A stretch of DNA of 36,522 nt from Clostridiales bacterium (GCA_007120165.1 SKOH01000069.1:1-36522), one strand, 5' to 3'; positions 2,345 to 25,547 are shown, counted from the first letter of the stretch. Notes: generated from the sequence alone by a model not told the origin. Program-made: numbers and translations.

Positions 2345-4633
<2,289 letters not shown>

Positions 4634-8492: not shown

Positions 8493-10625
8493 ATGAAGGA
8501 TAAAATCATCAAAAAGGAATGGGCCCTGGAAGGTCTGGGTTGTGGAAACTGTGCGGAAAAAATGGAGTACCGGATTAGTAAGCTGCCGGGGGTGGAGCGG
8601 GCAAGAGTGGATTTTATCGCCGGCAAACTAACCCTGGAAGTGGATAAAAAGCAGGAAATAACAGAAATCCTACAAAAAGCCGCGGGCATCATCGATCATA
8701 TTGAACCGGGGGTGCAGGTAAAAAACTATCCGGACAAAGGCAGTAAACCGAAAAGCTTCGCTGTCGGTGCGGAGGATTCCGAGTCAAATAAAAATCGAAT
8801 AAGACTGCTGATCGGAGGCGGAATTTTCGCCCTGGCAATGTTGCTGAATCTCTCTGAAAACTTGAGTCTCAGCCTCTTTCTTTTTAGTTACGTAATTGTG
8901 GGGGGAGGAATACTTTTAAGAGCCGGGAAAAACATCCTTCGAGGACAGGTGTTTGACGAGAACTTTTTAATGGGGATTGCCACCTTGGGGGCCGTGGCCA
9001 TCGGCGAATATCCGGAGGCCGTGGCGGTAATGCTCTTTTACCGTGTAGGAGAGTATTTTCAGGACTTAGCCGTAAACCGTTCCAGAAAATCCATCGGTGA
9101 ACTGATGGATATACGACCGGATTTTGCCCATTTAAAAACCGGCGGGGGCCTTAGAAAAGTGGACCCGGAGGCGGTTCGAATTGGAGACGTGATCGTTGTT
9201 AAACCGGGAGAGCGGGTGCCCCTGGACGGGAAGGTCCTGGAAGGAACCTCCGCCGTAGACACCTCCGCCTTAACCGGGGAATCCCTGCCCCGGGATGTAG
9301 AAATTGGAAGCCGGGTACTCAGCGGCTTTATTAATAATAGCGGGGTACTTACCATGGAAGTGTTAAAGGAATTTGAGGACTCCACCGTAGCTAAAATCCT
9401 GGATTTAGTGGAAAATGCCAGCAGTCGGAAAGCTCCGACGGAAAATTTCATAACAAAATTTGCCCGGTATTATACTCCGGTTGTGGTGATTACCGCATTA
9501 CTCCTTGCCGCGATTCCTCCAATGGTAATTCCGGGTGCGTTGTTTTCTGAATGGATTTATCGGGGTCTTGTTTTTCTTGTGATATCCTGTCCCTGCGCCC
9601 TGGTGATCTCAATTCCCCTCGGATTTTTCGGCGGGATTGGGGGCGCCTCCAAAAGAGGAATATTAATTAAAGGAAGCAACTATCTTGAAGCCCTGAATAA
9701 CGTGGAAACCGTGATATTTGATAAAACCGGAACCTTGACGGAAGGAAAGTTTAAGGTAAGAAAACTGGTTCCCGCTGAAGGCTTCACCAAGGAGGAACTT
9801 CTTGAATATGGGGCCTATGCCGAGGGCTTTTCCAATCATCCTATAGGACGATCCATTCTAGAGGCGTACAACCAGCCGGTGGATACTGCAGAACTGAGGA
9901 ATTATCAGGAAATTCCGGGACTGGGAATTAAGGTGGACTATAATAATAAAAATATTCTAGCAGGAAACAGTAAACTGATGGACCGGGAAAACATCCACTA
10001 TATATCAGCAAAAACCCTGGGGAGTATTGTTTATATTGCCGTAAACCGACAATACATCGGGTATATTGAAATTGCCGATGAGATAAAAAAAGACAGTAAA
10101 AATGCGGTCCGTTCCTTAAAAGCTTTAGGGGTTAAAAATACCATCATGCTGACCGGGGATCGTAAAAATGTGGGAGAAGAAATCGGAAGAAAGCTGGGAC
10201 TGGATACGGTTTATGCAGAGCTGCTGCCGGATCAGAAAGTGCAAAAGCTTGAGGAAATTGAAGGCGAAAGAACCACGAAGGGAAAAGTACTGTTTGTCGG
10301 AGACGGTATCAATGATGCGCCGGTATTAGCGAGGGCGGATGTGGGCGTTGCCATGGGCGGGCTTGGTTCCGATGCGGCCATCGAGGCTGCGGATGTGGTA
10401 ATTATGAATGATGAACCTTCAAAGATCGCCACGGCCATAGGAATCGGAAGAAGGACCCGAAGGATTGTATGGCAAAATATCATTGTCGCCCTCGGGGTAA
10501 AACTGATTTTTTTAATCCTGGGGGCCATGGGGATCGCTACCTTATGGGAGGCGGTGTTTGCCGATGTAGGGGTTGCGCTGCTGGCGATCCTGAATGCCAT
10601 GCGGGTGATGCAGGTCAAAAATTAA
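8493..10625 (+). CDS. cadA: Zn/Cd/Pb-exporting P1B-type ATPase
   Basis: A 710-aa heavy-metal pump. An N-terminal HMA domain binds metal through C17 and C20 (GCGNC). The membrane metal site is C366-P-C368 (ISCPCALV), and a further conserved aspartate lies in the last helix (ADVGVALLAILNAMRVM). The actuator has TGES at 261-264, the phosphorylated aspartate is D410 in DKTGTLTEG, the nucleotide domain has the HP motif (SNHPIG, H449), and the hinge motif is GDGINDAP. The last-helix aspartate together with CPC is typical of ZntA/CadA rather than copper pumps. It should use ATP to expel Zn, Cd or Pb. It is the second gene of the operon with the CadC-like repressor, with RBS AAAGGAGA ahead of the start. 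Confidence 0.95.
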   Translation: MKDKIIKKEWALEGLGCGNCAEKMEYRISKLPGVERARVDFIAGKLTLEVDKKQEITEILQKAAGIIDHIEPGVQVKNYPDKGSKPKSFAVGAEDSESNKNRIRLLIGGGIFALAMLLNLSENLSLSLFLFSYVIVGGGILLRAGKNILRGQVFDENFLMGIATLGAVAIGEYPEAVAVMLFYRVGEYFQDLAVNRSRKSIGELMDIRPDFAHLKTGGGLRKVDPEAVRIGDVIVVKPGERVPLDGKVLEGTSAVDTSALTGESLPRDVEIGSRVLSGFINNSGVLTMEVLKEFEDSTVAKILDLVENASSRKAPTENFITKFARYYTPVVVITALLLAAIPPMVIPGALFSEWIYRGLVFLVISCPCALVISIPLGFFGGIGGASKRGILIKGSNYLEALNNVETVIFDKTGTLTEGKFKVRKLVPAEGFTKEELLEYGAYAEGFSNHPIGRSILEAYNQPVDTAELRNYQEIPGLGIKVDYNNKNILAGNSKLMDRENIHYISAKTLGSIVYIAVNRQYIGYIEIADEIKKDSKNAVRSLKALGVKNTIMLTGDRKNVGEEIGRKLGLDTVYAELLPDQKVQKLEEIEGERTTKGKVLFVGDGINDAPVLARADVGVAMGGLGSDAAIEAADVVIMNDEPSKIATAIGIGRRTRRIVWQNIIVALGVKLIFLILGAMGIATLWEAVFADVGVALLAILNAMRVMQVKN

Positions 10626-18207: not shown

Positions 18208-19317
18208 TTAAACCTTGCCTCTTCGAAGTCTTGATAAAATCACGTTGATTTCTCCCCCGATGATAAGGATAATGCTGCTGATGAAAAGCCATAAAATAAC
18301 CACGATGATGCTTCCCAGGCTTCCATAGACATTGGAATAATTAGAAAAATTGTTGACGTAAATGGAGAATCCCAGGGAGGCCAATAACCAAAATACCACC
18401 GTAAAGAGGGACCCCCAAAAGACACTTTTAAATTTCAGTTTCAGGCTCGGAGCCAATTTATAAAACAGCATGAAAAACAAAATCATAACAACAATGGGTA
18501 TCGGGAATCGTATCCAGTTCCAAAGATCAATAAAATTGTCCGATAACCCGAAAAAGTCGAAAACATAGGTCCCGATAACCTCACCGAACACAATAAAGAA
18601 AAAGGAGAGAAGGATCACGACGGGTACCCCAATGGTGACCACCAGGGCAACCGCCTTCACATGGAAAAAGTTCCGGGTTTCTTCTACGTTATAGGCGGTG
18701 TTGGTGGCCTTGATTAAGGCCTGAGCCCCTTTCAGGGAACTCCAAAGTGCGCCGATCACACTGAAGGACAGCAGGGCGCCGCTGGTATTGGTAAATACCT
18801 CTTCGATGGTATCAAGAATCAGTTCCTGGCCCTCATCCGGGAGTAAGCCCTCGATATTCCCAATAAGGGTTTCGTAATCCAGCGGGGTATACTGAAGGAC
18901 GCTTAAGAGGAAAATAAGAAAAGGAAACAAGGCCAGAATAAGATAAAAGGTTGTCTGAGCCCCCAGGTCCGGCACGTTATCCTCTTTTACATTGTGGATC
19001 AGAGCCTTAAAGAAGGTTTTAGAATTCTCTTTAAGATCCTCGTCGGACTCCTCCGGTTCCTGATCATAGGCATAAACGCTTTTCTCTCCCGGGGAGGGGC
19101 TGGAGGTATCTTTATGAACGGCAGATACATTTTTTTCGCTTTGCGGTTTTTCCGGTTTCCTCTGGACAGCGCCGGTATCGGGATTTTGGAAAACCTTAAT
19201 ATTGCGTTTGAGATTAAAAAGCTTCAATACAAACAGAAGGAGGGCTCCCAGCAACAGGGCGAGACCCAGAAAAAACAGAGCCCACAAAATATTATCCAAA
19301 GAGATGGTATCAAACAT
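18208..19317 (-). CDS. YihY/BrkB-family membrane protein
   Basis: A 369-aa protein. An N-terminal helix (about residues 8-30) is followed by a charged, low-complexity cytoplasmic stretch (about 40-90), then the BrkB/YihY domain (about 95-365) with TTFYLILALFPFLIFLLS, the segment ALWSSLKGAQALIKATNTAYNV and a C-terminal helix ending in GGEINVILSR. YihY proteins were once called ribonuclease BN by mistake; their true role, perhaps transport, is unsettled. I take the ATG at 19317 with AAGGAG seven bases before it; a TTG one codon earlier is too close to that site. It follows the HTH-TPR regulator by 30 bases and is probably in its operon. Confidence 0.88.
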   Translation of the reverse strand: MFDTISLDNILWALFFLGLALLLGALLLFVLKLFNLKRNIKVFQNPDTGAVQRKPEKPQSEKNVSAVHKDTSSPSPGEKSVYAYDQEPEESDEDLKENSKTFFKALIHNVKEDNVPDLGAQTTFYLILALFPFLIFLLSVLQYTPLDYETLIGNIEGLLPDEGQELILDTIEEVFTNTSGALLSFSVIGALWSSLKGAQALIKATNTAYNVEETRNFFHVKAVALVVTIGVPVVILLSFFFIVFGEVIGTYVFDFFGLSDNFIDLWNWIRFPIPIVVMILFFMLFYKLAPSLKLKFKSVFWGSLFTVVFWLLASLGFSIYVNNFSNYSNVYGSLGSIIVVILWLFISSIILIIGGEINVILSRLRRGKV

Positions 19318-19347
19318 CAAATCACTCCTTTTTCTTTGATAAGTAGT

Positions 19348-20259
19348 TTAGATGGCGATATTAAAAACCTTCCGGCAGTTTTCCAGCATTTTTAAGGATA
19401 GTTTCGGATGTCCAAAAGCCTTGGAAAGGGTTAGGGCAAGGTTTAATGAATCCAGATAATCCTCATGTTTCAGCCGGAACTTAATGATTCCTTTGTTATA
19501 GTAAAGCAGGTTTAAACCATTATAGTTTCGATTGTTCTGACAGGACAGAATCCCTTCGTTTACAATGGATAAAGCTTTAAGATCCTCCTTTGAGCGTATG
19601 TATACCGTGGATAGATTATGGCAGATCTTCGGGTAGATTCCATCGTTTTTATCCGAGGACTGCTGACAAAACTCCAAAATTTCGATATAGGCATCGGCAT
19701 CTCCCAACTGATTCAATACAAACGCCACATTCATCAGTATTCGAATTTCAAGAGTGGAATATACAAAATCGGAAAAGGTGCCAACTGAAAAAGCGGGAAG
19801 GGTACGCTGCAGCCCCCGGACCAGTTCCTCCAATGCCTTCGATGGGGCTGTTTCTTTTTTATAGAGTATTACCGCTTTGGAAAGATGGATCAGCTGCTGA
19901 ATTTGAACCTTGAAATAGGACTGGGTGGAGTTCTTCAGCAAGGATTCAAGTTCCAGTATCTCCTTTTCCAGTGAGTCGATTTCGTCCCGGTCGAATTTCA
20001 GTTCCAAACGGTTATACACCTCGTTAAACAGCAGGCTGTGGTCAATTCGGTACTGGGAAAACACCAGCAGTAAATCCTCTTTGTACAGGGAGGATAAGAT
20101 TTCCAGGGTTTCAAATTTGGGAATTACTTTTCCTCCCTCCAAACGGCGAAGGGTGGAAGGGTTGATGCCGGTTTTTTCATACACTTCATTTTGACTTAAT
20201 TCATACTTAAGGCGTATATCCCGTATTTTAATGCCGAAATTCCTAAGATTAAAATCCAT
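19348..20259 (-). CDS. HTH-TPR regulator of RRNPP (PlcR/Rgg-like) architecture
   Basis: A 303-aa protein. An XRE-type helix-turn-helix spans about residues 8-60 (LSQNEVYEKTGINPSTLRRLEGG), followed by about 230 residues of paired helices with TPR-like spacing (such as AYIEILEFCQQSSDKND and GLNLLYYNKGIIKFRLKHE). This size and order match peptide-sensing regulators such as PlcR and Rgg, whose TPR domain binds a short re-imported peptide. It is transcribed away from a gene for a 66-aa exported peptide with a repeated octapeptide, which is its likely partner. RBS AAAGGAGA precedes the ATG. It probably forms an operon with the BrkB gene. That it senses this peptide is inference from architecture and position. 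Confidence 0.85.
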   Translation of the reverse strand: MDFNLRNFGIKIRDIRLKYELSQNEVYEKTGINPSTLRRLEGGKVIPKFETLEILSSLYKEDLLLVFSQYRIDHSLLFNEVYNRLELKFDRDEIDSLEKEILELESLLKNSTQSYFKVQIQQLIHLSKAVILYKKETAPSKALEELVRGLQRTLPAFSVGTFSDFVYSTLEIRILMNVAFVLNQLGDADAYIEILEFCQQSSDKNDGIYPKICHNLSTVYIRSKEDLKALSIVNEGILSCQNNRNYNGLNLLYYNKGIIKFRLKHEDYLDSLNLALTLSKAFGHPKLSLKMLENCRKVFNIAI

Positions 20260-20504
20260 AACAGTCTCCTTTACTCATAGGTTTATCTATAACATATTTA
20301 CCTTAAAAATCTGATTTGAAACAAATTATAAGAATTAATAACCCGCCATAAAGAACCGATGCTCCCGATATACAAATCCTTATAGCAAGAATCGTGCCAA
20401 GATCAGCCTTCCCCACCGTGCATTGATGCCTGCTGTAATATCATCAGAACTGTTATATTATATAATCAAGCAAATTATATACATTAGTAAAGGAGGCTGT
20501 CTCA
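20260..20504. promoter_or_regulatory. Divergent control region between the HTH-TPR and peptide genes
   Basis: This 245-base AT-rich region holds no credible ORF. Toward the regulator, a minus-strand TATAAT (20325-20330) overlaps the palindrome ATTTG-AAA-CAAAT (20314-20326). Toward the peptide gene, TATAAT at 20461-20466 ends the palindrome ATTATATAAT (20457-20466) and lacks a recognisable -35. Instead, TGATG (20424-20428) and CATCA (20442-20446) form an inverted repeat roughly centred on the -35 position. A missing -35 with an inverted repeat in its place suggests an activator-dependent promoter; this is inference. Confidence 0.5.
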
Positions 20505-20705
20505 ATGAAAAGACTGATTGCTTTTAGTATGATCGTTACCGGTTTGATGTTTACAATTGTTGGTGGGGGGATGGAGATGAATAGTGGAAAAGCAGATGAC
20601 GGGCTCTTCGAATGGAATAGCTTACCTATGGAAGAGGAGGGGATAGCAAAACCGGATGATGGACTGTTTGAATGGAACGATTTTACCGATGAAGAGTACT
20701 CTTAA
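20505..20705 (+). CDS. Exported small peptide with duplicated DDGLFEWN motif; candidate signalling precursor
   Basis: A 66-aa product. MKR followed by about 20 hydrophobic residues (4-22) looks like a Sec signal peptide or single anchor. The rest is acidic and contains two copies of DDGLFEWN, at residues 31-38 and 51-58, each preceded by K-A or K-P and followed by an acidic spacer. The DNA of the copies differs at five of eight codons, every change silent. The RBS is AAAGGAGG with 8-base spacing. The layout (export signal, propeptide, repeated mature unit, divergent HTH-TPR regulator) fits a peptide pheromone precursor of the RRNPP class. I do not recognise the sequence as any named pheromone. 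Translation looks real; the signalling role is inferred. Confidence 0.75.
   Translation: MKRLIAFSMIVTGLMFTIVGGGMEMNSGKADDGLFEWNSLPMEEEGIAKPDDGLFEWNDFTDEEYS
20595..20678 (+). repeat. Two-copy 24-base coding repeat inside the peptide gene
   Basis: Copies at 20595-20618 and 20655-20678 encode identical octapeptides 20 residues apart. Third-position differences occur in the second Asp, Gly, Leu, Phe and Asn codons, with no amino-acid change. The repeat is therefore old at the DNA level but conserved as protein. Confidence 0.9.
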
Positions 20706-20749
20706 TCAAAACCTGAGGAATTAGTACAGGGATAGCGGGAGGGGATGGC

Positions 20750-21439
20750 ATGGGACAGATCATTGAAGAGTATTATCCCAATCCTCAGGGAAACGGGAGC
20801 AGCTTAAGAAATTCTTCGAATGAACGGATCCTTAGAAATGTTTTCTCTTTCTCTGAAAAACCGAAGGTGAGCAGGGTTGACAGAAGACTGGTTATTCAGC
20901 ACACCCTGGATACAGACAGTCTTCGTATTGAAGGACAGGAAAGGCATATGGATTATGTGGAGGGCTATAGCATAGCCATTGGCAAAATCTTATTCATCAC
21001 GGGAGATCAGCTGAGGGATTTAGCCCTGGCTGCTAAACTCCATGATGTGGGAAAGGCTTTTTTAAAACCGGGGATTTTAGATATGCCCCGTAAACTCAGT
21101 GATAAAGAAATGGAAGAAATAAAAAAACATCCTGAAATCGGCTATTGGCTGCTGAAATCCGATAGCCGCTATCAGAAAGTGGCAGAGTATGTAAGACATC
21201 ACCATGAACGTTGGGACGGGCTTGGATATCCGGGGGGATTAAAGGGCGGAGAAATACCACTGTTTTCAAGAATTATTGCAGTAGCCGATGCCTACGATGC
21301 AATGACATCAAAACGGGTCTATCAAAAGACGAAAAGCTGTCCGGAAGCGGTCCGGGAATTAATCAAGCATTCCGGCAGCCAGTTTGATCCGAATATCGTA
21401 AAGATTTTTGTGGAGAAGGTTTTGTGGATAAAGCCCTGA
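20750..21439 (+). CDS. HD-GYP domain protein, likely c-di-GMP phosphodiesterase
   Basis: A 229-aa protein. After a non-conserved N-terminus (1-60), the HD-GYP domain fills the rest: RHMDYVEGYS, the metal pair in AAKLHDVGKAFLKPGIL, KKHPEIG, VRHHHERWDGLGYPGGLKG with the GYP signature, and SRIIAVADAYDAMTS. HD-GYP enzymes hydrolyse cyclic di-GMP; the metal-binding residues look intact. No sensor or receiver domain is attached, so activity is probably set by expression. It starts 44 bases after the peptide gene with no terminator between, so both should share a transcript. RBS is GGGAGGGG. This links the peptide locus to c-di-GMP turnover. Confidence 0.92.
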   Translation: MGQIIEEYYPNPQGNGSSLRNSSNERILRNVFSFSEKPKVSRVDRRLVIQHTLDTDSLRIEGQERHMDYVEGYSIAIGKILFITGDQLRDLALAAKLHDVGKAFLKPGILDMPRKLSDKEMEEIKKHPEIGYWLLKSDSRYQKVAEYVRHHHERWDGLGYPGGLKGGEIPLFSRIIAVADAYDAMTSKRVYQKTKSCPEAVRELIKHSGSQFDPNIVKIFVEKVLWIKP

Positions 21440-22837: not shown

Positions 22838-24154
22838 TTATTTCCCTACAATGGAAGCTTCTTTAAACAGTACCATGGGGGAATAACCCATATGATAAAA
22901 AATACTGCGCATAACTTCGTAATGGGTTCCGACGGCCTCCACATTTTTAAACATATCATAAATGTTTCCTGCAATCATTGCCCCTTTAACCTGGCCTTTC
23001 AGCTCACCGTTCTCAATAAGATAGCCCGAAGAAATATTCAATGAGAAATCCCCCCGATTGATATTTCCGGTGTGGGCTCCCATAACCCCGGTAATCAGCA
23101 ATCCCCGTTTTATGCCTTTTATTATCAGCGCATCTTCCTGATGATCTCCCTCAATCACCAGATTGGTATCAAAGATTGACGGGGTGTCTTCGATTTCCTT
23201 GGAAAAGAGCGTACGTTTTAAGGCATTCCCTGTAGGGGCCTGGTTCAGCTTATTGCCTTGTTCGATATTGACCAGGTAATTCTTCAGCACTCCCTTTTCA
23301 TAGAGTACCGTGTTTTTCGCTGGGGTACCTTCATCATCAAATAAACAGGTATTGACCCCAAAGGCCATTTTTCCGTCGTCCCGGATGGTAATTTTTTCGG
23401 AAAAAAGCTTTTTACCGATCTGATCTTTAAGAGGGGACGTGCCTTTTAACACATTGCCGCCATGAACGCCCCCCAGGACTCGAAGCATCAGGGCTCCCAT
23501 GACATTGCCGGAAAAAATCACCGGCATTTTTTCATTTTCCATATGAATGGCGGTATTGCCCAGACGGTGGCGTTGAATCAGCTGGTCCAGATCCCTATCG
23601 GAAACTTCCGGAACTTTTCCCGAGGAATACTCCTTTGAGCTTCCCATAAACCCTTTTTCCGTCAGGGTATTAAGGGAGATCGAAAGATTGGAGTAATCAT
23701 AGGTTTCGTTGAAACCCGCACTGTTCAGTAGAGATATCCGCTTAATATTTTTTTGAACACGGACCCCCGTGGGAATATCCGGTGCTTTTTCCTTAAGCCG
23801 GAGGGAGAGGCTAAAGGCCATTTCCGTTAACCCTTCGGTGCTCAACTGGTCTACCTCCGGAGAGAAGGAAAACACCATCCGGGGAGGCTCGCTGGGAAAT
23901 TCGACGGCATCGGACTTTTGATTCTCCAGCGCAATCAGTGCGCGGTCCACTAAGGTGTCGTCTTCTAAGGAGGTGGAGACCGAGGTCCCCATTAGTCCGT
24001 CCCTGGTAAGCCTTAGGGACACTTCCCGTTTCTTTTCGCCGCTGATATCCTTTAGCTTTCCCAGCTTAACGGATACAGAAGTACTGTGGATATCCCGTTT
24101 ATAAACTTCAGCCCCATCCCCTGCGGCCAGAGCTTTGTTTAATAATTCTCGCAT
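22838..24154 (-). CDS. pmbA: TldE/PmbA, subunit of the TldD-TldE metalloprotease
   Basis: A 438-aa protein of the TldE (PmbA) family, the partner of TldD in a heterodimeric zinc protease that degrades unfolded peptides and matures some modified peptides. It lacks the HExxxH motif, as expected for TldE. Typical segments are SFSPEVDQLS, VIFSGNVMGALMLRVLGG, FGVNTCLFDDEGTPAKNTVL and MGAHTGNINRGDFSLNISSGYL. Its ribosome binding site AGGAGGAC lies within the end of tldD, one base separating the two genes, so translation is coupled. No peptide substrate gene for this protease is obvious beside it. Confidence 0.93.
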   Translation of the reverse strand: MRELLNKALAAGDGAEVYKRDIHSTSVSVKLGKLKDISGEKKREVSLRLTRDGLMGTSVSTSLEDDTLVDRALIALENQKSDAVEFPSEPPRMVFSFSPEVDQLSTEGLTEMAFSLSLRLKEKAPDIPTGVRVQKNIKRISLLNSAGFNETYDYSNLSISLNTLTEKGFMGSSKEYSSGKVPEVSDRDLDQLIQRHRLGNTAIHMENEKMPVIFSGNVMGALMLRVLGGVHGGNVLKGTSPLKDQIGKKLFSEKITIRDDGKMAFGVNTCLFDDEGTPAKNTVLYEKGVLKNYLVNIEQGNKLNQAPTGNALKRTLFSKEIEDTPSIFDTNLVIEGDHQEDALIIKGIKRGLLITGVMGAHTGNINRGDFSLNISSGYLIENGELKGQVKGAMIAGNIYDMFKNVEAVGTHYEVMRSIFYHMGYSPMVLFKEASIVGK

Positions 24155-24155
24155 A

Positions 24156-25508
24156 TTACTGTCCTCCTATTCCCATATTTTTGATTTTAATCGGAGCGGA
24201 ACCCTTTCCCGACTGAATTAAAATCTGGCCCCCTTTACCGCAGCCCCCGGCCTTGGAAAAGGTTACGTCACTGCCGACCATTTCAATGTTTTTCAGGGTG
24301 GTAAACAGGTGACCGGTAAGGGCAAGGTCCCGGACCATATGGGTGATTTTCCCTTTTTCGATTCGGTAGCCCCCCTGTACGGCAAAGGTGAAGGTCTCTC
24401 CGCTGGTTTGTCCTCCGGCGGAGCCGAAGAGGTAAAGTCCGTCATCGATGGAGGCGATCATATCCTCTAAAGAACTGTTTCCCTGATCAATATAAATATT
24501 TCCCATGCGAACGATCGGCGTAAAACCAAAGTTTTTTGCCCGGGCATGGCCGGTGGGTTCTTCGTCCATAAAGCTGGCGCTTTCCAGGGAGTGGAGCCGG
24601 CCGGTTAATTTTCCCTCATGAATTAACGATACCGGTCGTGCTTTGGTTCCTTCGTGGTCATAGATATAGCTGCCCGGGTGGCCCTTTCGGGTCGGGTCGT
24701 CTATTACATTAAAGTTCTCCATAGCAAAGGATGTTCCAAGGCTCATGGTGCTGCTGAGACTTTTATTCCCAATCAGATTATCAGCTTCGCTAAGATGACC
24801 GAAGGCCTCATGAATAAAAAGACCCCCTACATCGCTGTCTAATATCACATCGTAATTCCCGCCTTTAACCGGTTCGGCGCTGAGAAGGTCCACGGTCTGC
24901 CGAACCTTCGCAAGAACTTCCTCGTCTTTATCCAAAAGTTCGCGGTAATCTTCATTCCCGCCAAAGGAAAGTCGGGTCAGTTGGGTCAGATCCCCCCGTT
25001 TTGCTGTAATTCGAAAGGTCATCCCGCAGATCAGTTCCTCCTGATGGATGTCGCCCCCCTGGTTGTTAAGAATCAGCGTGTCGGTAAACTGCTCATAGTA
25101 CTGGGATTCAAGGTCCGCGATTTCCGGGTGCTGAAGTATTAGTTTTCGGTATTTTTCCAACAGTTCTTTTTTCTGGGAAATAGCCTGTTGTCTGGGATCC
25201 ATTGTGGGAGAGACCGTTACCCGGGCTGTATTTTTCGGGATGCGTTTTAGTTGTTCTTTTCCGGGATTTAAGTCGCTGGCGGTTTTGGCTTCCCGAAAAG
25301 CGGTGGCAATATCCTTCGGGTCGGTAAAGGCGAAACTTCCGAAACCGCCGCCGGAGAGCACCCGAACATTTCCACCGCTTTTTCTTACTATAGATACTTC
25401 GTCAATCTCATCCCGGCCGCCTTTAATAGCGGTATGGGAGAAGTCTTGATATCGAAGATCACAGAAATCATCGGTAAGTAAGGCTTGCTTGAAAAACTGC
25501 TTATCCAT
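24156..25508 (-). CDS. tldD: TldD, catalytic subunit of the TldD-TldE metalloprotease
   Basis: A 450-aa protein. The zinc-binding active site HEAFGH is at residues 233-238 (HExxxH), and the third ligand is expected to be the cysteine in KAGGCGKGGQ near the C-terminus. LDSDVGGLFIHEAFGHLSEAD and RMGNIYIDQGNSSLEDMI are characteristic. It partners TldE immediately downstream. Two adjacent ATG codons (25511 and 25508) follow AAGGAGG; the second has better spacing, so I used it, but the first cannot be excluded. A further upstream codon at 25547 has no ribosome binding site. Confidence 0.94.
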   Translation of the reverse strand: MDKQFFKQALLTDDFCDLRYQDFSHTAIKGGRDEIDEVSIVRKSGGNVRVLSGGGFGSFAFTDPKDIATAFREAKTASDLNPGKEQLKRIPKNTARVTVSPTMDPRQQAISQKKELLEKYRKLILQHPEIADLESQYYEQFTDTLILNNQGGDIHQEELICGMTFRITAKRGDLTQLTRLSFGGNEDYRELLDKDEEVLAKVRQTVDLLSAEPVKGGNYDVILDSDVGGLFIHEAFGHLSEADNLIGNKSLSSTMSLGTSFAMENFNVIDDPTRKGHPGSYIYDHEGTKARPVSLIHEGKLTGRLHSLESASFMDEEPTGHARAKNFGFTPIVRMGNIYIDQGNSSLEDMIASIDDGLYLFGSAGGQTSGETFTFAVQGGYRIEKGKITHMVRDLALTGHLFTTLKNIEMVGSDVTFSKAGGCGKGGQILIQSGKGSAPIKIKNMGIGGQ

Positions 25509-25547
25509 CATTTTCCTCCTTTTGCCCGGGGATATCCCGAGCCTCAT

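Follow-up and report, generated by a model that had tools for sequence, protein, structure and literature searches.

A predicted PlcR-like peptide quorum-sensing module with an HD-GYP gene in a Clostridiales bacterium

A three-gene locus in DNA from a Clostridiales bacterium (GCA_007120165.1 SKOH01000069.1:1-36522; this entire 36,522-nucleotide (nt) stretch is referred to as the window) very probably encodes an RRNPP-type, PlcR-like quorum-sensing module. It would comprise a peptide receptor with a helix-turn-helix (HTH) and tetratricopeptide repeats (TPR), a divergently encoded pheromone precursor carrying two copies of the signal unit, and an HD-GYP protein as output. The original prediction, made from the sequence, had proposed peptide quorum sensing of the RRNPP type; this core interpretation was supported by the fold of the regulator, by the recurrent pairing of its homologs with small exported peptides and by an intergenic operator found in part of the family. 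The regulator gene (303 amino acids; 19348-20259, minus strand), the divergent 66-amino acid open reading frame (ORF; 20505-20705, plus strand) and the stand-alone HD-GYP gene (229 amino acids; 20750-21439, plus strand) were all found where that prediction had placed them.

Results

The regulator is predicted to adopt a PlcR-like fold

Domain searches revealed a significant HTH_3 match in the regulator (E 2.4e-9). The RNPP_C score of the single sequence was 15.8 bits, under the family cut-off of 26.5, and the regulator family profile aligned to residues 3-287 of PlcR, corresponding to its full length (E 1.3e-9). The AlphaFold2 model (predicted local distance difference test, pLDDT, 92; predicted template modelling score, pTM, 0.74) consisted of the HTH, five TPR-like helix pairs and a capping helix. 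The top PDB match returned by Foldseek was the PlcR-PapR7-DNA complex 3u3w (template modelling scores 0.69/0.73); ComR and Rgg came next, and PrgX ranked lower. The helical repeats recognised in the original prediction therefore correspond to a predicted PlcR-like HTH-TPR fold, as opposed to a protein without TPR-like structure. With 303 amino acids and an N-terminal HTH, the regulator also had the size and architecture described for RRNPP (RRNPPA) receptors (250-500 amino acids with a TPR domain). Its predicted fold places it among the RRNPP receptors of the PlcR clan; it is distinct from PlcR itself, because the orientation of the peptide gene, the operator and the sub-threshold family score differ.

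Homologs of the regulator recurrently face small exported peptides

Searching 394 genomes of the order with the regulator identified homologs in 31 of them, representing 15 genera and often several per genome; a profile search likewise gave 31 genomes. A class-level search beyond the order added three genomes only, and no clear divergent peptide was seen at the loci of these relatives. Pairing was scored automatically as a small exported ORF that is divergent from the regulator and has a ribosome-binding site, export being judged by composition; the remaining genes of these loci and shuffled sequences served as controls. This layout was found for 29/55 full-length regulators (one match being a long PlsY-like gene), compared with 3/176 other genes (one being a family pheromone-like ORF displaced by an insertion sequence element) and 0/550 shuffles, which excluded chance as its origin. 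Manual reading of the flanks raised the number of peptide-paired regulators to 35/55, and an exported divergent peptide was present at 6/8 held-out regulators. An adjacent small exported propeptide, as expected of RRNPP systems, was also found at all five loci of the window's genus (5/5). The family rates fall inside the 40-89% range reported for secreted propeptides beside Rap, AimR, NprR and PlcR subfamilies (PMC9765709). The original prediction had named a majority of homologs lacking an adjacent peptide gene as the result that would count against it; about two thirds face an exported peptide.

Three further observations concern the distribution of the family. At locus L078 (G006:C1, 1116-4053), a DDE transposase gene (1371-2873) splits the regulator (3079-4053) from the likely peptide gene (1116-1271). 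The window's own genome contains a paralog made of the TPR part only (L018, G000:C75; 1548-2114, minus strand), with no HTH in the frames just upstream; it is either decayed or an HTH-less peptide binder. Searches of phages and viral contigs with the window regulator, and of plasmids with its relative from locus L071, found nothing, and a phage or plasmid origin was dropped.

The precursor carries two constrained copies of an acidic octapeptide

The window peptide matched no family in the domain search. Its basic and hydrophobic N-terminus is followed by a repeat region in which the octapeptide DDGLFEWN occurs at residues 31-38 (20595-20618, plus strand) and again at residues 51-58 (20655-20678, plus strand). 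The two copies encode identical protein but differ by 5 synonymous codons, indicating that they are not a fresh duplication. The length of 66 amino acids and the positions of the repeats were fixed in the 5/5 genus loci examined, with an octapeptide reading DDGL(F/I)EWN; the fifth of these copies sits at a contig edge, where the regulator is cut off. Position 5 is F in two genomes and I in three, the switch always affecting both copies together; in one second copy, N replaces the first D. The ratio of nonsynonymous to synonymous polymorphism (pN/pS) was 0.07 in repeat 1, 0.05 in repeat 2 and 0.05 in the tail; constraint was weaker in the linker (0.28) and the N-terminal signal part (0.40). These values and the fixed repeats therefore indicate that the peptide is real and constrained, with two units held to the same sequence.

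Across the family, the divergent ORFs encode precursors of 41-204 amino acids whose N-termini are basic and hydrophobic and whose tails are acidic. The acidic core is typically (D/E)D-(I/L/V)-P, and typical tails are GEDIPRLY, GENDIPRVY, GDDDVNYPKI, EDLPRLF and ADDDIPK. Some precursors contain the core repeatedly: NDIPRILG is present about 18 times, and GDEDIPGVW, AGDEDIDIIPL, DDIWDLT and DDGLFEWN twice each. In the closest relative outside the genus, PDLEYEWTDY resembles DDGLFEWNDF of the window. The pre-registered motif regular expression also matched 15% of shuffled tails, which makes the motif count weak evidence when taken by itself; the argument is carried by the pairing and the repeats. 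In the held-out set, the expression matched strictly in 4 true peptides, and two more had a looser acidic core. Among 34 non-redundant receptor/peptide pairs, peptide distance correlated with the distance between TPR parts (r 0.37, P 0.0002) and more weakly with that between HTH parts (r 0.22, P 0.01), relatedness being not fully controlled in this comparison. The copy number of the core is unusually high in the 204-amino acid precursor of L071 (G169:C2), divergent from the regulator at 2948-3895, which contains the roughly 18 NDIPRILG units in tandem.

A likely operator occupies the place of the -35 element

When inverted repeats were counted without supervision in the intergenic regions between regulator and peptide, a likely family operator emerged upstream of the peptide gene, the palindrome CCCGA-N6-TCGGG. 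This sequence or a close variant (at most 2 mismatches) was present at 18 regulators, compared with 0.5 expected. Its bases varied with the recognition helix: base 4 is G with D before TLR and A with E (11:1 versus 0:4), and at base 5, LRK goes with A and LRR with T (12:0 versus 0:2), counts that come from related regulators and so do not represent independent events. The -10 element of the peptide gene starts 30-31 bp past the operator centre in 12/13 cases (0.85 expected); the operator therefore stands where a -35 element would be. Following promoter logic, this is the placement we infer for a class II activator, and the geometry suggests that the regulator activates the peptide gene directly. 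In the intergenic region of L051 (G129:C4), CCCGA-N6-TCGGG is present twice, which suggests double binding.

In the window's genus, where the recognition helix reads PSTLRR, another dyad occupies this place. The pattern ACCG-N-GCAT-NN-ATGC-CTG, with invariant half-sites and a variable spacer, was found at 5/5 genus loci, and no second site was detected in the five genomes at up to 2 mismatches. The window copy, ACCGTGCATTGATGCCTGCTGT (20415-20436, no strand assigned), contains the dyad GCAT-NN-ATGC at 20420-20429 and is the candidate operator of the regulator. The offset from dyad centre to -10 element is 31 in 5/5 genus loci, matching that of the family operator. The -10 element of the peptide/HD-GYP promoter is TATTAT (20456-20461, plus strand), overlapped by TATATT at 20454, with no good -35 element. 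The ribosome-binding site of the peptide gene, AAAGGAGG (20489-20496, plus strand), is conserved in the genus alignment.

An HD-GYP gene follows the peptide gene

The third gene gave a significant HD_5 match (E 8e-33). In six aligned HD-GYP copies, the HDxGK, HHE..DG.GYP-type and DAM motifs were conserved, and the HD-GYP ligand residues (HD, H, HH and D) were present together with the GYP motif. The protein matched the solved enzymes 4mcw/4mdz and 5z7c and is predicted to be a phosphodiesterase of the cyclic di-GMP (c-di-GMP) type. The peptide and HD-GYP genes are predicted to be co-transcribed: they are separated by 44 nt, with no terminator-like site in this gap of the window, in agreement with the terminator-free order noted originally. 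HD-GYP is the next gene after the peptide in 5/5 genus loci.

The same association recurs at a diverged paralogous locus, strengthening the HD-GYP link of the original prediction. A second regulator in genome G001, 27% identical to that of the window, likewise lies opposite an exported peptide, and an HD-GYP gene follows at some distance. The HD-GYP protein of this paralogous locus shares 63% identity with that of the window, compared with 62-69% for orthologs and 49% for the next-closest HD-GYP outside these cassettes in the compared genomes. At this locus (L020), the peptide and HD-GYP genes are separated by about 500 nt and one small ORF; the ORF (8650-8962, about 103 amino acids) belongs to no family and gave only sub-threshold coiled-coil-like matches. 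Because no HD-GYP gene is adjacent elsewhere in the family, this output would be lineage-specific.

Alternatively, the peptide and receptor could form a real quorum-sensing pair with the HD-GYP gene as an incidental neighbour under its own control, which we consider unlikely. The synteny of the whole region within the genus weakens adjacency as evidence, and both the spacing at the paralogous locus and the other family members without HD-GYP agree with such a view. The 44-nt gap without a terminator and the 5/5 conserved adjacency argue against it, as does the HD-GYP gene near the 27%-identical regulator being the nearest relative outside the orthologs.

A sigma-54 element reads toward the regulator in the genus

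A sigma-54 type -24/-12 element, TGGCACGATTCTTGCT (20384-20399, minus strand), reads toward the regulator and was found in 5/5 genus loci. The pattern occurs at 8 sites genome-wide, compared with 0 for a reversed control pattern, and rpoN is present in the window's genome. The element was absent at other regulators of the family, and a sigma-54 promoter was dropped as a family feature because it does not extend outside the genus. Four Opp-type binding proteins are present. At L198 (G000:C44), one of the seven further sites in the window's genome, a sigma-54 promoter (site 3527-3542) lies beside a PAS-type activator gene, ahead of an oligopeptide-transporter operon with an Opp-type binding protein. 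Import and receptor may share sigma-54 control, which we offer as a lead only.

Neighbouring genes

The range originally delimited (18208-21439) also takes in an unrelated gene for a YihY/BrkB membrane protein (18208-19320, minus strand; Pfam Virul_fac_BrkB, E 8e-71), which lies 27 nt downstream of the regulator. It is perhaps part of the regulator transcript and is outside the switch; it lies next to the regulator across the genus, but the entire region is equally syntenic. Just past the switch are two TldD/TldE-type metallopeptidase genes (22838-25547, minus strand), whose position is kept across the genus. In other settings, enzymes of this type trim peptides, and a role in pheromone maturation is conceivable by analogy, in a region that is syntenic anyway.

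Discussion

Collectively, these data are best accounted for by a peptide-responsive switch. The regulator would act as a cytoplasmic peptide receptor and DNA-binding activator, itself read from the sigma-54 promoter. The 66-residue precursor would be exported with two pheromone units, DDGL(F/I)EWN or a heptamer contained in it. After trimming, the peptide would be re-imported and would bind the TPR groove; one of the four Opp-type binding proteins would probably serve the import. On the dyad centred about 30 bp upstream of the -10 element, in the -35 place, the receptor would then turn on the peptide-HD-GYP transcript. The outcome would be positive feedback on the signal and a density-dependent c-di-GMP-type phosphodiesterase, by which c-di-GMP may fall at high density.

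Several observations weigh against this scheme. About a third of the homologs have no recognised peptide, and HD-GYP is not adjacent to the other regulators of the family. The best PDB match of the HD-GYP protein is a 3'3'-cyclic GMP-AMP phosphodiesterase, so its substrate is uncertain. The palindrome CCCGA-N6-TCGGG is absent from the window's genus, where it was dropped as the operator; the dyad is assigned in its place from conservation and position only. The basic and hydrophobic N-terminus of the genus peptide contains no textbook A-X-A signal peptidase I site: the identical octapeptides of the exported precursor first proposed proved conserved and selected, and its export signal has no clear cleavage site. 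Finally, a permutation test gave no significant similarity between the window peptide and the exact heptamer of PapR7, ADLPFEF, and a close likeness to PapR7 was dropped.

The regulator could also bind the intergenic operator and respond to another molecule, the exported peptide being a surface or stress peptide made as its target product. The operator evidence marks the peptide gene only as a likely target, ligand binding by the receptor being our inference, and some homologs have no peptide. Set against this are the RRNPP fold, peptides whose divergence follows that of the TPR domain more closely than that of the HTH, and the recurrence of the acidic unit as identical repeats inside one precursor, a pattern typical of pheromone precursors with several copies; we therefore regard the target-product explanation as improbable. 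A toxin-antitoxin pair, in which a membrane-active toxin-like peptide is opposed by an antitoxin-like HTH repressor, is suggested by a short hydrophobic peptide opposite an HTH gene, and was dropped as highly implausible because conservation and repetition are seen in the acidic tail and not in the hydrophobic segment, the fold is PlcR-like over its full length, and the operator replaces the -35 element instead of covering a good promoter.

Among known systems, the quorum-sensing module proposed here most resembles PlcR/PapR of the Bacillus cereus group, the best structural and profile match, which shares the HTH with five TPR-like pairs and a small exported precursor adjoining the receptor. 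PapR7 (ADLPFEF; PMC6568020) resembles the family core D-(I/L)-P, the mean score ranking 50th among 2520 permutations. In the PlcR subfamily, the peptide gene lies immediately downstream of the receptor (PMC9765709), whereas it is divergent in the window and in paired homologs. The RNPP_C score below cut-off, a different operator, the frequent presence of several paralogous pairs per genome and the HD-GYP output also set the present family apart. The very short, hydrophobic, PptAB-exported pheromones of Rgg/SHP and ComR/ComS differ from precursors of 41-204 amino acids with an N-terminal hydrophobic segment and an acidic tail.

In Qsr/Qsp of Clostridium acetobutylicum, clostridial regulators of the HTH-TPR type similarly have their own small exported peptides, whose active part can lie inside the precursor (PMC7376267). 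Unlike the present family, qspB lies downstream of qsrB, seven TPRs are predicted as a rule, and the peptide C-terminus conserves L, P and W instead of an acidic D-x-P core (PMC7376267). The RRNPP_detector survey proposed 21 novel high-confidence clusters (PMC10075063; tree in PMC12700828), and its candidates likewise combine an adjacent propeptide with a TPR receptor of 250-500 amino acids. Its main-text descriptions contain no HD-GYP, operator or DIPR-type core, and the present family may be one of these 21 unnamed candidate subfamilies (PMC10075063). Among the RRNPP literature found, none gives HD-GYP this role, papers combining RRNPP and c-di-GMP being represented by their titles and abstracts.

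In the DSF (diffusible signal factor) system of Xanthomonas, an RpfG-type HD-GYP protein is a quorum-sensing output. In both cases, cell-cell signalling has an HD-GYP enzyme as its output; RpfG is a two-component response regulator serving a fatty-acid signal, whereas here a peptide receptor would exert transcription control.

The family appears to be a new Clostridia branch of PlcR-like RRNPP quorum sensing, and possibly the first with an HD-GYP output. We lean towards a fuller statement: that this PlcR-like branch is undescribed and has a fixed-position operator, a readable helix-to-base code and an activated divergent pheromone, and that the transcript of one lineage carries HD-GYP, making it the first RRNPP circuit with a direct connection to the breakdown of cyclic dinucleotides. 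If true, a coherent set of 42 receptor/pheromone pairs, often several per genome, would be added in a part of the Clostridia with little described peptide signalling, and in Gram-positive bacteria peptide quorum sensing would be tied to the turnover of cyclic dinucleotides. Both the pheromone cores and the operators are predicted with enough specificity for direct testing, and the multi-copy precursors and operator/helix covariation provide a large natural set for studying signal and DNA-binding specificity.

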